From: Paenibacillus taiwanensis DSM 18679
GTDB lineage: Bacteria > Bacillota > Bacilli > Paenibacillales > Paenibacillaceae
Length of the DNA stretch: 64,000 nt
Assembly: GCF_000425125.1 (NCBI RefSeq)
Contig: NZ_AULE01000031.1
Span: 1-64,000, forward strand
Direction: 5' to 3'
Shown: positions 50,982 through 56,213 of the stretch, piece after piece
Position numbering within the stretch: the stretch's first letter is position 1
How the letters are laid out: each line of letters starts with the position of its first letter
Made by a program: the position numbers and the translations under genes
Notes under the pieces: model-generated
What the model saw: the letters and a program-made list of their open reading frames with translations, nothing else
Database searches by the model: none
What the model was told of the DNA's origin: nothing

Positions 50982-51842
50982 TTATTCAAAATCCTTCTGA
51001 AACAATCGGTACAGGTGCATCGCAATGTATGCAACCTCATCATCTGATACATTCATATTCAACGTCTTCGCCATTAATGCCCCGCATTCCTTCGCTACTC
51101 CAAATTCATACGGCACCATATCCATCAGCTTATCCCGAAATGGATTACGTGAATGTTCACCTTGGCGAATCCGTTCAATCGCAAATCGTAAATGGGTTAT
51201 TAATCGCAAGTAATCAATACTATCCTTAGGGATCTGGCTGCCTCGTCGCTCTTCAATGAGAACGACCAGTTCTTTCAGCAAGTGATTGTACTGCACCACA
51301 TTACCTACGGGAACATGAGCCACAGCAGATTGAATATGAATGGTCAGGAAGCCAATCTCGTCTTCCGGAATGACAATTCCAAATGCAGAACCGATTAACT
51401 CAGCTGCTTGGGTTGCTACTTCATACTCCTTAGGATTCAACGTGCGTATTTCCCAAAGAAACGGATTCTCTATCGAAATATCATGTCGGATTCGGTATAA
51501 GGCATATTCAATGTGGCTTGGAAGAGCCAAATGAATGTGCTCATTCAGATCAGGTGTCAGTTGTTCGGATACCAAGGAAATAATTCGCTCGGACACCATA
51601 ATAACTTCGGCGTCAATCTGCTCCAGAATCATCTGATACTGTGATAAATGCTGCTCACTAGCCAGCGAGAACTTCTTCTCAATGCGAGCATCGGAATGCT
51701 CTATGGAAGCGCTTGGCTTCGCACCAAACCCGATTCCCTTGCCCATGAGAATAGTTTCTTTGTTCGACCACACATCGTTTGCCAATACGACATTGTTGCT
51801 TAATGCACGTATAATCTCAAAGCGACGCTCGTCCGACAACAT
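50982..51842 (-). CDS. glcT: BglG family transcription antiterminator, GlcT-like
   Basis: RNA-binding antiterminator that lets PTS genes be transcribed when sugar is present. The 286-aa protein has the CAT RNA-binding domain (residues about 1-60: IIRALSNNVVLAND, ILMGKGIGFGAKP) and two PTS regulation domains: PRD1 (about 65-170, with LPSHIEYALYRI and the phosphorylatable His) and PRD2 (about 175-286, with RLITHLRFAIERI and MHLYRLF). AAGGAG lies four bases before the ATG. Two identical RAT targets are in the window, before the IICB gene and before crr. A cre-like site lies in its own leader. Confidence 0.92.
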   Translation of the reverse strand: MLSDERRFEIIRALSNNVVLANDVWSNKETILMGKGIGFGAKPSASIEHSDARIEKKFSLASEQHLSQYQMILEQIDAEVIMVSERIISLVSEQLTPDLNEHIHLALPSHIEYALYRIRHDISIENPFLWEIRTLNPKEYEVATQAAELIGSAFGIVIPEDEIGFLTIHIQSAVAHVPVGNVVQYNHLLKELVVLIEERRGSQIPKDSIDYLRLITHLRFAIERIRQGEHSRNPFRDKLMDMVPYEFGVAKECGALMAKTLNMNVSDDEVAYIAMHLYRLFQKDFE

Positions 51843-52100: not shown

Positions 52101-53840
52101 CTACAGCATCAGTTCTTGAACCGCAGGTACACGCTCGTGAACGAGTCGTTGAATATCCTCTTCATGCTCCATCATCAATGCCTCTTCAGCCAACTGCTTC
52201 AGTTCATCGCGATTCAGACGATTGATCAACACACGCGCAGGCAAAACAGAGCTTGCACTCATGCTGAACTCATCGAGGCCAAGACCAAGCAAGACTGGAA
52301 TAGCCGTCAAGTTGCCGGCCATCTCGCCACACATACCAGCCCATTTGCCTTCCTTATGCGCTGCATCAATGACCATACGAATCAAACGAAGCACAGCTGG
52401 GTTAAATGGCTGTGTAAGATGGGATACCTTCTCATTCATGCGATCCGCAGCCATCGTATATTGAACAAGGTCGTTTGTGCCAATCGAGAAGAAATCAACT
52501 TCCTTAGCCAGCTGATCCGCAATGATAGCGGCAGCCGGTACCTCGATCATCATGCCGACCTCCATGTTTTTGTTGTAAGCAATGCCTTCGGCATCCAGTT
52601 CTGCTTGTGTTTCCTTCAAAATTTCATTAGCCGCACGCAGTTCAGCAAGCGTAGAAATCATCGGATACATCAGCTTAATGTTGCCGTGTGCACTTGCACG
52701 TAGAATAGCCCGTAGTTGTGTCTTAAACAGATCTTTACGATCCAAGCAGATCCGAATGGCACGGTAGCCCAGGAATGGATTCATTTCCTTCGGCAGCTCC
52801 AAATACGGCAGCTCTTTGTCACCACCGATATCCAGCGTGCGAATGACGACTGGCTTATCCGCTCCTAACGTTTCCACTACTGTCGAGTAGCTATGGTACT
52901 GTTCTTCCTCGGTTGGGAAGCTGTCGCGCCCCATATAAAGGAATTCTGTACGGAACAAGCCTACACCCTCAGCACCGTTGTTGCGGGCGCCAAGCGCGTC
53001 TTGTGGATTGCCAATATTAGCAACAAGCTCTACTTCATGGCCATCAGCCGTGATTGAAGGCTTTTCTTTGTACAGCTTCATTTCTTCTTGACGTTTCTCA
53101 AACTTGGCTTTCATCTGTTCATACGTCGATAACGTTTCAGCATCTGGATTGACCAGGATTATCCCTTTTGCCCCATCCAAAATAATCATATCTCCGTCTT
53201 TCACCGTTTCGGTAGCGGATTGAAGACCGACAACAGCTGGGATCTCCATGGAACGCGCCATAATGGCAGAGTGCGAGGTGCGCCCACCGATATTGGTAGC
53301 AAAACCAGCCACTTTGCTGCGATCAAGTGTAGCGGTATCGGACGGCGTCAAATCGTGCGCAAACAACACAACTGCTTCATGAAAATCGCTAAGCGATGCG
53401 TTTCTCTTGCCGGTCAACACACTGAGAACTCGCTGGCTCACATCACGGAAATCGGATGCACGCTCGCGCATATATTCATTGTCCATACTTGTAAATATAT
53501 CGATCAATTGTTGGGTCACTTCCTGCAATGCAAATTCCGCATTTACAGCCTCTGAACGTACCTTTTCAATTGCTTGCCCGATAAATTCCTCATCTTGAAG
53601 CACCAGAATATGCGTCGCAAAGATCTCCGCATGGTGCTCGCCAAGCTTCGCTGCGGTATCTTCCTTGATCTGCTCTAATTCCGCCATTGCTTGATTTACA
53701 GCCTGTTGCAAGCGTGTTGCTTCCGCATCCACGTCTGCTGCTGCAATCTGTTTGCGTTCAACTACAGTTGTTTGCTCTTGCATAATAAATGCCGGTCCAA
53801 TTGCATAGCCAGATGCCGCTGCGATCCCTTTAAGTTGCAT
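52101..53840 (-). CDS. ptsI: Phosphoenolpyruvate-protein phosphotransferase (PTS enzyme I)
   Basis: Transfers phosphate from PEP to HPr, the first step of all PTS sugar uptake. The 579-aa length is usual. Features: HPr-binding helical region in the first 150 residues, phosphorylated His in GGRTSHSAIMARSMEIPAVVG near residue 190, PEP-binding domain with RTEFLYMGRDSFP, the IRTLDIGGDKELPY segment, and the C-terminal CGEMAGNL containing the active-site Cys. The start ATG has GGAGTGGAG upstream. It follows ptsH after a 142-bp gap, wider than in B. subtilis where ptsH and ptsI adjoin. Confidence 0.97.
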   Translation of the reverse strand: MQLKGIAAASGYAIGPAFIMQEQTTVVERKQIAAADVDAEATRLQQAVNQAMAELEQIKEDTAAKLGEHHAEIFATHILVLQDEEFIGQAIEKVRSEAVNAEFALQEVTQQLIDIFTSMDNEYMRERASDFRDVSQRVLSVLTGKRNASLSDFHEAVVLFAHDLTPSDTATLDRSKVAGFATNIGGRTSHSAIMARSMEIPAVVGLQSATETVKDGDMIILDGAKGIILVNPDAETLSTYEQMKAKFEKRQEEMKLYKEKPSITADGHEVELVANIGNPQDALGARNNGAEGVGLFRTEFLYMGRDSFPTEEEQYHSYSTVVETLGADKPVVIRTLDIGGDKELPYLELPKEMNPFLGYRAIRICLDRKDLFKTQLRAILRASAHGNIKLMYPMISTLAELRAANEILKETQAELDAEGIAYNKNMEVGMMIEVPAAAIIADQLAKEVDFFSIGTNDLVQYTMAADRMNEKVSHLTQPFNPAVLRLIRMVIDAAHKEGKWAGMCGEMAGNLTAIPVLLGLGLDEFSMSASSVLPARVLINRLNRDELKQLAEEALMMEHEEDIQRLVHERVPAVQELML

Positions 53841-53982
53841 GTCGGTTTCTCCACTCCTTTAGAAGATATAATACATAACGCGTATATAGTAAGGTTTTTA
53901 TCTCTATAGTCTAAAATTCCATGTAAAGCCTGATATCGACGAAAGGACGCAAGTCCCCCGTCTATTTGAATCACATCATAAA

Positions 53983-54243
53983 TTAGTCAAGTACAGACTC
54001 AATGATGCTTCCTACAGCTTCAAGTGCTTCTGCCGCTTGCTCGCCTTCGGTAATAACGGTAACGGAATCGCCTGCTTTCATACCTAGTGTCAATACGCCA
54101 GTAATACTTTTGGCGCTAACTTTGCGTCCGTTAAATTCCAAGGAAATTTGTGCATTAGCAAATTCGCTTGCTTTTTTCATGATAGCGCCAGCCGGGCGTG
54201 CGTGAATACCTTGTGGGTTTTTAATTGTAAATTGTTTTTCCAT
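53983..54243 (-). CDS. ptsH: Phosphocarrier protein HPr
   Basis: Passes phosphate from enzyme I to the IIA proteins and serves as CcpA corepressor when phosphorylated on Ser. The 86-aa protein has the catalytic His14 in GIHARPAG and the regulatory Ser46 in SAKSITGVLTLG, the site of HPr kinase, so full carbon catabolite control is expected. AGGAG lies nine bases before the ATG. It is preceded by an unusual repeat-filled spacer of about 244 bp after crr. Confidence 0.97.
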   Translation of the reverse strand: MEKQFTIKNPQGIHARPAGAIMKKASEFANAQISLEFNGRKVSAKSITGVLTLGMKAGDSVTVITEGEQAAEALEAVGSIIESVLD

Positions 54244-54273
54244 GATCGTTTGCTCCTATTCTTTAGTAAGGTG

Positions 54274-54328
54274 TGAAACCGCATGTCTTTTGTTAACTTT
54301 TGAAGTTTTAATGATTGCTGCGGTTTCA
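54274..54328 (-). repeat. 10-bp inverted repeat in the crr-ptsH spacer
   Basis: TGAAACCGCA (54274-54283) and TGCGGTTTCA (54319-54328) are perfect inverted repeats separated by 35 bases that include AACTTTTGAAGTT. There is no T run, so it is more likely an mRNA hairpin (processing or stability) than a terminator. Confidence 0.6.
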
Positions 54329-54493
54329 TTCATTTGTACAGCTTCGCTTCATTTATGTGTGAACTCATTTGTTTGTGTAGTTTCATGCATTTGGTCAGTT
54401 CATTTGTTTGGTCAGTTCAATCATTTACTTACTTCATTCATTGCTCAATTCATTCATTTGCTTAGTTCATCATTTGTGAGGCATCATTTATTT
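54325..54493. repeat. Degenerate 16-19 bp tandem repeats between crr and ptsH
   Basis: About nine tandem units on the plus strand, such as TTCATTTGTTTGGTCAG, TTCATTCATTTGCTTAG and TTTCATGCATTTGGTCAG, sharing TTCATTCATTTG followed by a variable 5-base part. They fill the spacer up to the crr stop codon. In the mRNA they read as repeated AAATGAATGAA. No known element matches. Confidence 0.75.
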
Positions 54494-54970
54494 CAAAGTA
54501 ATTTCCATCAATTCAGATGAGTTGGCCGTTGCTTGGCCTTGGTTCACTTTCAGCTCAGCTACAATGTCACCGTTTGCTACGATGATCGGTGTAATGACAG
54601 GCAATCCTGCTTCTTTAATTTGAGCGATATCAAAATCAATCAGCTTGTCGCCTTTTTTCACTTTGTCACCTGATTTCACATAGGTTGTGAACGGTTTACC
54701 TTGCAGTGAAACTGTGTTTACTCCAATATGAACCAGCAGCTCCAAGCCAGACTCATGTCCAAGCACCAAGGAGTGATGTGTGTCGATCAAATGAATGACG
54801 TGGCCATCAAAAGGTGCAACCAAGCTGCCTTGCTCAGGCTCGATCGCAATGCCGTCACCGATAATTTTTTGAGCAAAAGCCGGGTCTGGAACTTGCTCCA
54901 ATGGTACTACTTTACCTGTAATAGGTGCTGTAATTGAAATCGATTTTTTCTTTTTCCCAAATCCAAACAT
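54488..54970 (-). CDS. crr: PTS glucose-type IIA component
   Basis: Stand-alone IIA of the glucose family that carries phosphate from HPr to IICB proteins. The 160-aa protein has DGIAIEPEQGSLVAPFDGHV and the active-site pair of His66 in DTHHSLVLG and phosphorylated His81 in LLVHIGVNTVSLQGK. ATG 54970 follows GAGGAGG by seven bases. It can serve both IICB proteins in this window, since neither has its own IIA. It is the first gene after RAT 2, so crr-ptsH-ptsI are controlled by GlcT-type antitermination. Confidence 0.93.
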   Translation of the reverse strand: MFGFGKKKKSISITAPITGKVVPLEQVPDPAFAQKIIGDGIAIEPEQGSLVAPFDGHVIHLIDTHHSLVLGHESGLELLVHIGVNTVSLQGKPFTTYVKSGDKVKKGDKLIDFDIAQIKEAGLPVITPIIVANGDIVAELKVNQGQATANSSELMEITLK

Positions 54971-55062
54971 GAGAATTCCTCCTCGATTAGTCCATATTAT
55001 TGTCCGCAACGCTGTATCTAATGTTGGCCATAAGCTCTCTTCTGCGGCTACACAACAAAACC

Positions 55063-55121
55063 AAAAAAGGCATGCGCTGAAGCATGCCGTCCACCCCGTG
55101 AACAGCCGCTTAGCTCATGCC
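55063..55121 (-). terminator. Terminator overlapping RAT 2 (before crr)
   Basis: On the minus strand GGCATGAGC (55113-55121) can pair with GCGCATGCC (55069-55077, one mismatch), followed by TTTTTT. The 5' arm lies within the RAT, so antitermination by a GlcT-type protein is expected. A local hairpin GGCATGC/GCATGCC may also form. Confidence 0.78.
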
Positions 55122-55142
55122 TAGTCGTACTAGTAACACGCT
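55112..55142 (-). promoter_or_regulatory. RAT 2: antiterminator target upstream of crr-ptsH-ptsI
   Basis: Identical over 31 bases to RAT 1 (50939-50969), including the GTGTTACTAGTACGACTAGG core. It lies about 145 bases before the crr start codon. Confidence 0.86.
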
Positions 55143-55445
55143 ATCTTGCAGTGTAAAATTCATCACTCATTCTAACATGCTGAATCGGCGGATGCAAGCG
55201 AGCAAGGCGGCTACAGAAGTATTGCCAGTATGTGCTAAGTTACACAACAGCAGTGCGGACTTTACTTACTCCTAAGATGCTCCTGTTGCGTGCAATTCAT
55301 ACGATTCATTACCCTGTATTACGCACTTGAAGCGAAATGGGATTCAGTTGTCGATTATATTTATCGACTTTCCGTCACTCACTGTTGCAATTTAGACACA
55401 TTAAGCTTAGATACGGTTCGAAATTACCGCTTAGATTACCGCATA

Positions 55446-55505
55446 GGTTTATAACTTTTCGAACGAGTTTATAATTTACCTAACCGGTTTATAACTTACC
55501 GGATT
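55446..55505. repeat. Three imperfect 20-bp direct repeats
   Basis: GGTTTATAACTT, AGTTTATAATTT and GGTTTATAACTT begin at 55446, 55466 and 55486, exactly 20 bases apart, i.e. about two helical turns. They lie about 300-360 bases upstream of RAT 2. Confidence 0.6.
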
Positions 55506-55730
55506 TATCATAACTTAAGGCCGAAATTCGAGCTTATTGCTCGCAATTGCCGTGGGTGTCAGTTGGTTAAGCTCATTTTTCCGCCTTATGTTCTTCATTT
55601 GCACCCATGCACACGTTATGATTGTGACATCAGCTACCTTTAAGACTGGAATGCTCGCTTAACCCCCGCAGTTTTTCCTCACAGATAGAAAATAAGATCG
55701 CTTTCCCGCCTTATCCCAGCATTCTCTCTC

Positions 55731-55790
55731 ATGTCCATCATTGTCCATCGTTGTCCATCGTTATCCAACGATATTGATAGTTATTCATCG
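55731..55790. repeat. 10-bp tandem repeats (TTGTCCATCG)
   Basis: Two exact copies at 55741-55750 and 55751-55760, with related units ATGTCCATCA before and TTATCCAACG and TTATTCATCG after. Function unknown. Confidence 0.6.
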
Positions 55791-56213
55791 TTTTCACTAG
55801 GTATCTACTGGTGTCATCGGTTCCCTAAGTATCACACGTAACCCTCATTATTCATCCTGCCCGCACTACGCTTCCCACAGCGTACACATTCAAGTAACCG
55901 CGCGCTCATCTAATCACTGCACTAGATGGGCTGCACTTCTTCACCGACGATTATTTAACCAAATTAACCATATTAATTACTCACACTCGAATGTCACAAC
56001 TATAATACTTGCTGCTACTCGTTAATGATGCACATACTGTAGCTTCGTATTGAAAACTACGTATTCAACATTACTTACTAGAGTGGCTAAAATGGTGCCT
56101 ATTAAATGTTTAACGCTGCTCATTCAAATCTACTCATTTATGACAGCACATAATGACCTAATCCATCTCGCCTTCATCCAGTAATGTATTTAGTCTAGTA
56201 TGGCATTCTGTAA

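Follow-up and report, generated by a model that had tools for sequence, protein, structure and literature searches.

The crr-ptsH-ptsI operon and its leader

The locus lies in a 64-kb stretch of DNA that was analyzed as a whole (hereafter, the window) and comprises three PTS genes on the minus strand. The genes and the elements between them are, in the order of transcription:

54488..54970, minus strand: crr, glucose PTS EIIA component (TIGR00830, 147 bits, over cut-off)
54325..54493, minus strand: degenerate tandem array of ten units with the core AAATGAATGAA (TRF, shuffles, hand-cut units)
54273..54328, minus strand: predicted stem-loop with a 10-bp perfect stem, TGAAACCGCA/TGCGGTTTCA (inverted-repeat and fold shuffles)
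54244..54272, minus strand: ribosome-binding region of ptsH, with AGGAG, plus a short leader (conserved in ACRRX, the nearest relative)
53983..54243, minus strand: ptsH, phosphocarrier HPr (TIGR01003, 84.5 bits, over cut-off)
52101..53840, minus strand: ptsI, PTS enzyme I (TIGR01417, 747 bits, over cut-off)

The crr start codon is an ATG at position 54970, and the open reading frame reaches 55009 with a TTG start. Between the crr stop (54488-54490) and the ptsH start (54243) lies a spacer of 244 nt. The neighborhood also holds a PTS IIBC gene, with an N-acetylglucosamine-specific family as its best match, and a GlcT-like antiterminator gene at 50982-51842 (313 bits, just below the cut-off of 320 bits).

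The leader of crr (window 55060-55250, minus strand) displays a promoter-like sequence (TTGCAT/TTAGAAT), followed in the list of its elements by the segment GTGTTACTAGTACGACTAGGCATGAGC and by an intrinsic terminator that is strong (fold z -3.69). It is 93.5% identical over 432 nt in ACRRX and 81-89% identical over approximately 120-150 nt in 17 more distant congeners, with no match to any Rfam model. The segment GTGTTACTAGTACGACTAGGCATGAGC presumably corresponds in kind to the GlcT-binding RAT element of B. subtilis ptsG, which it resembles, and the leader is thus probably a GlcT antitermination element ahead of crr-ptsHI. Given this conserved, RAT-like leader, crr, ptsH and ptsI probably form one antitermination-controlled operon, with the array inside its transcript.

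A degenerate tandem array in the crr-ptsH spacer

The first-pass annotation had reported a degenerate repeat array between crr and ptsH, comprising about nine units of 16-19 bp. TRF and shuffled controls establish this array as real and place it where it had been reported, inside the operon, although the count and unit length require correction: positions 54325-54493, the crr-proximal two thirds of the spacer, hold ten imperfect units in tandem, each 16-21 nt long. The last crr codon and its TAA stop are shared with the first unit; the last unit ends near 54323. Each unit consists of an imperfect core of about 11 nt, AAATGAATGAA in mRNA sense, followed by a variable tail of 6-12 nt. Read as mRNA, the units have the majority consensus AAATGAATGAAnTnAC, in which the core is favored by the units having been cut by hand; ATGA is invariant in 10/10 units. 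Spacing is roughly regular (16-19 bp for most units), unit-to-unit likeness amounts to 67-75% matches (TRF), and the A content is 48%.

The array is far above chance and confined to a single locus. At default settings its TRF score of 100 is the highest in the window, and looser settings yield a score of 144 over exactly 54325-54493. Applied to the 244-nt spacer alone, TRF returns 106, a value reached by 0/2000 dinucleotide shuffles (mean 18, maximum 71). The motif ATGA occurs 14 times in the spacer against 6 expected, and AATGA 11 times against 3 expected; again, 0/2000 shuffles reach either count. With head-to-tail units in the range of 10-60 bp that stand well above chance, the array qualifies as a minisatellite. 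Its core is better kept than its tails by comparison with a simulation of uniform mutation (0/480), a simple simulation whose alignment is anchored on the core.

Background samples of 464 kb from this genome and 490 kb from ACRRX were used for ranking. Among the intergenic arrays sampled in this genome, the array ranks second, and the sole higher scorer is a CRISPR array. A search of the genome for the unit, as proposed in the annotation, finds the clustered motif at one locus only: a loose whole-genome pattern search gives 24 matches, 8 of them in the array and 16 scattered. Outside this locus, array and unit find only chance-level matches of about 17-31 nt, both in this genome and in 18 congeners, the tail of the ACRRX spacer excepted. 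The annotation had also set the array apart from CRISPR, terminators and known intergenic elements. This assessment stands: the array is unlike CRISPR, Rfam models give zero matches up to E = 1 across 53700-56200, and scans of the spacer for promoters and terminators return counts about equal to those in shuffles, with nothing beyond chance.

Between the array and ptsH, just upstream of the ptsH AGGAG, lies a predicted hairpin with arms at 54319-54328 and 54274-54283 and a small inner stem; its 5' arm falls within the last repeat unit. A perfect inverted repeat of 10 bp is reached in 2/300 shuffles. The hairpin occurs in none of the relatives. The 96-nt hairpin segment, noticed after the fact, is predicted to fold at -17 kcal/mol (z -2.76), and 3/200 shuffles fold as well. 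Only this part folds better than shuffles; the fold of the whole spacer does not (z +0.5). The array RNA itself has a mean unpaired probability of 0.59, compared with 0.39 in 104 background stretches of equal length (maximum 0.50), and contains 18 UGA, where mononucleotide shuffles average 2.8 and dinucleotide shuffles 13.8.

The spacer in related genomes

Following a further proposal of the annotation, the crr-ptsH spacer was compared across Paenibacillus. In 18 other genomes of the genus it measures 26-246 bp, and the array is present in 0/18. That close relatives would lack the spacer or have an unrelated one had been named in advance as the sequence half of what would speak against a role in ptsH expression, and this is the situation in 18/18 relatives. 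When the longer spacers of relatives are folded, no common structure emerges.

The nearest relative, Paenibacillus sp. ACRRX (G014), has HPr and EIIA proteins about 99% identical to those encoded here. Its spacer is 67 bp long, and both of its ends align with the spacer of this genome, leaving approximately 177 bp extra in the latter. Spacers of other species measure 67, 67, 58, 57, 58 and 65 bp. With lengths of 57-67 bp in several species besides ACRRX, a short ancestral spacer is the simpler assumption, and by parsimony the extra sequence was probably gained in this lineage; loss in ACRRX is the less simple alternative. Fourfold-site divergence from ACRRX is 0.15-0.60 for seven genes of the region (0.24-0.50 for crr, ptsH and ptsI), a distance that leaves room for the array to have grown after the split and for its units to have decayed to their present likeness. 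Sequences of the ancestral spacer type, in direct or inverted orientation, give no significant indication of having been the origin of the array (best case 50/500 shuffles). Three collinear spacers of the region differ by >100 bp between this genome and ACRRX, and on this comparison spacer lengths evidently shift often between the two. Open-access papers yielded nothing, for Paenibacillus, on the spacer between crr and ptsH or on intergenic arrays of degenerate repeats.

Other arrays are found in the vicinity of crr. ACRRX carries a degenerate intergenic array of 36/72 bp about 720 bp upstream of crr (L132:7148-7359; G014:C25, about 77148-77359), upstream of the crr promoter region and outside the operon. 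It is the strongest non-CRISPR intergenic array in the 490 kb of ACRRX, and its sequence is unrelated to that of the array described here. In the window, three weak degenerate arrays with units of 20-32 bp occupy positions 55436-56041, in a long non-coding region upstream of crr. The crr-ptsH spacer of another congener (G017, L009) contains a 12-bp unit, GTTCTAAACTAA, in triplicate and able to form a hairpin. Arrays recur near crr but differ in sequence and position, which fits local expansions that happened repeatedly and not an element under conservation.

Possible origin and roles of the array

We consider the array to be a lineage-specific, largely neutral degenerate minisatellite that is tolerated in an operon spacer, a reading to which we assign a probability of roughly two in three. 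Starting from an ancestral spacer of about 57-67 bp in the crr-ptsH-ptsI operon, repeated local tandem duplication, by slippage or misalignment around the AATG-rich core, would have added approximately 177 bp, and mutation would then have partly scrambled the units. An expansion that left the ribosome-binding region of ptsH intact may have been tolerated for that reason. Within the mRNA, the array would form an A-rich, unstructured linker, in our judgement with little or no selected function and without coupling the translation of crr and ptsH. Its absence from all congeners, the short spacers elsewhere and the alignment of both spacer ends with ACRRX speak for this interpretation, as do the different arrays in ACRRX, upstream of crr in this genome and in G017, and the lack of Rfam, promoter and terminator signals in the regions scanned. 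Against neutrality, every one of the ten units retains the core and the tails differ, beyond what the (simple) uniform-mutation simulation produces; at the end of the array stands a hairpin equaled by few shuffles; and the predicted unpairedness of the array exceeds that of every background stretch. An A-rich AATG repeat could bring about these features incidentally, or they could be what selection would leave. A recent gain alone does not exclude function.

Functional readings have to be weighed against this background. The annotation had drawn attention to many overlapping AUGA in the mRNA and to a possible effect on translation coupling. AUGA is indeed abundant, simply because it forms the core of the repeat. 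Termination-reinitiation is a matter of overlapping genes or very short intergenic distances. In reporters of E. coli and Haloferax, about 20 nt almost abolishes such coupling (PMC10666635), whereas the spacer measures 244 nt here and 67 nt in ACRRX. Given this distance and mini-ORFs without a clear ribosome-binding site, we reject translational coupling of crr and ptsH as the likely role. One might still envisage a relay, in which ribosomes leaving crr hop via overlapping AUGA mini-ORFs across the 244 nt to ptsH, as several mini-ORF stops do overlap the next AUG and form a chain over much of the array. However, a chain of this kind follows automatically from a repeated ATGA core, and its AUGs come without clear Shine-Dalgarno sequences. 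The last mini-ORF either stops 12 nt before ptsH or enters it out of frame, ptsH has its own AGGAG site, and the distance again is far beyond that at which coupling is almost lost in the systems tested (PMC10666635). We regard such a relay as exceedingly improbable. A cluster of binding sites for a DNA- or RNA-binding protein, that is, an operator array controlling ptsHI, would account for the conserved core and the roughly regular spacing of most units. This appears very unlikely for an array that is restricted to one locus in the genome, is missing from relatives that retain the operon, and shows neither a recognized operator nor a promoter beyond chance. A cre-like match with 2 mismatches is located at the array edge, but cre-like sites are not clearly above chance in the window (100 matches against 82.5 expected; 7/100 shuffles reach 100).

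Effects on mRNA stability, also suggested in the annotation, find circumstantial support in the predicted low structure, the many UG/A steps, the downstream hairpin and the RNase Y gene of this genome (810 bits, cut-off 454). The preferred RNase Y site in B. subtilis is a G/A step with a preceding U, in AU-rich RNA that has low structure there and structure further downstream (PMC11780869), and the array supplies low-structure, AU-rich RNA with such steps. The spacer may accordingly be imagined as a processing zone, in which RNase Y would cut the unstructured array and the hairpin would protect the new 5' end of ptsHI, leaving HPr and enzyme I in excess over EIIA-Glc. This possibility, the main rival to the neutral minisatellite, is a tentative one and, on balance, rather unlikely. 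The 18 UGA, the exceptional unpairedness and the predicted 10-bp hairpin ahead of ptsH speak in its favor, but the array is found in no relative, not even in ACRRX with its nearly identical flanking proteins, and congeners with short spacers evidently manage without it. Moreover, ACRRX has its array of similar size ahead of the crr promoter region and not in the operon, the low structure follows from repeat composition, and the RNase Y motif is weak, with GA absent at 63% of mapped sites (PMC11780869). Tandem duplication of an AUGA-rich unit might have generated a long, unstructured cleavage zone for RNase Y that, together with a new hairpin, sets the ratio of HPr/EI to EIIA in this species; we think this quite doubtful. 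If processing did occur, repeat expansion would be tied to PTS operon stoichiometry, with a minisatellite evolving into a stoichiometry control. If the array is neutral, it would add one to the cases of minisatellites that turn over fast in the operon spacers of bacteria, in this instance within an operon of core metabolism.

Three known systems lend themselves to comparison. CRISPR arrays share with this array the alternation of repeats and variable stretches. They consist of near-identical repeats of 23-50 bp with spacers of similar length, as opposed to the short, imperfect core and short tails seen here, and we reject this assignment. True CRISPR arrays exist elsewhere in this genome; arrays with the repeat GTCGCACTCTATACGAGTGCGTGGATAGAAAC were recorded at L139 (G000:C1, about 608.8-609.2 kb and 618.1-618.4 kb), and the repeat also occurs in ACRRX (L164). 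In the cggR-gapA and glnRA operons of B. subtilis, RNase Y cleaves beyond the first gene, and the downstream product is stabilized by a hairpin (PMC11780869). The layout of the present spacer would be alike, with AU-rich RNA of low predicted structure and UG/A steps after the first gene and a predicted hairpin before the next one, yet the low-structure part is a non-conserved repeat array, and cleavage here would be putative.

The closest likeness to the minisatellite that we favor is offered by bacterial intergenic minisatellites and VNTR loci, in which short units likewise stand head to tail at one intergenic site that one lineage has and the next lacks; in our comparison this species is represented by one genome, and the nearest species has zero copies. 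The units of the present array are much more diverged than those in typical VNTR typing loci.
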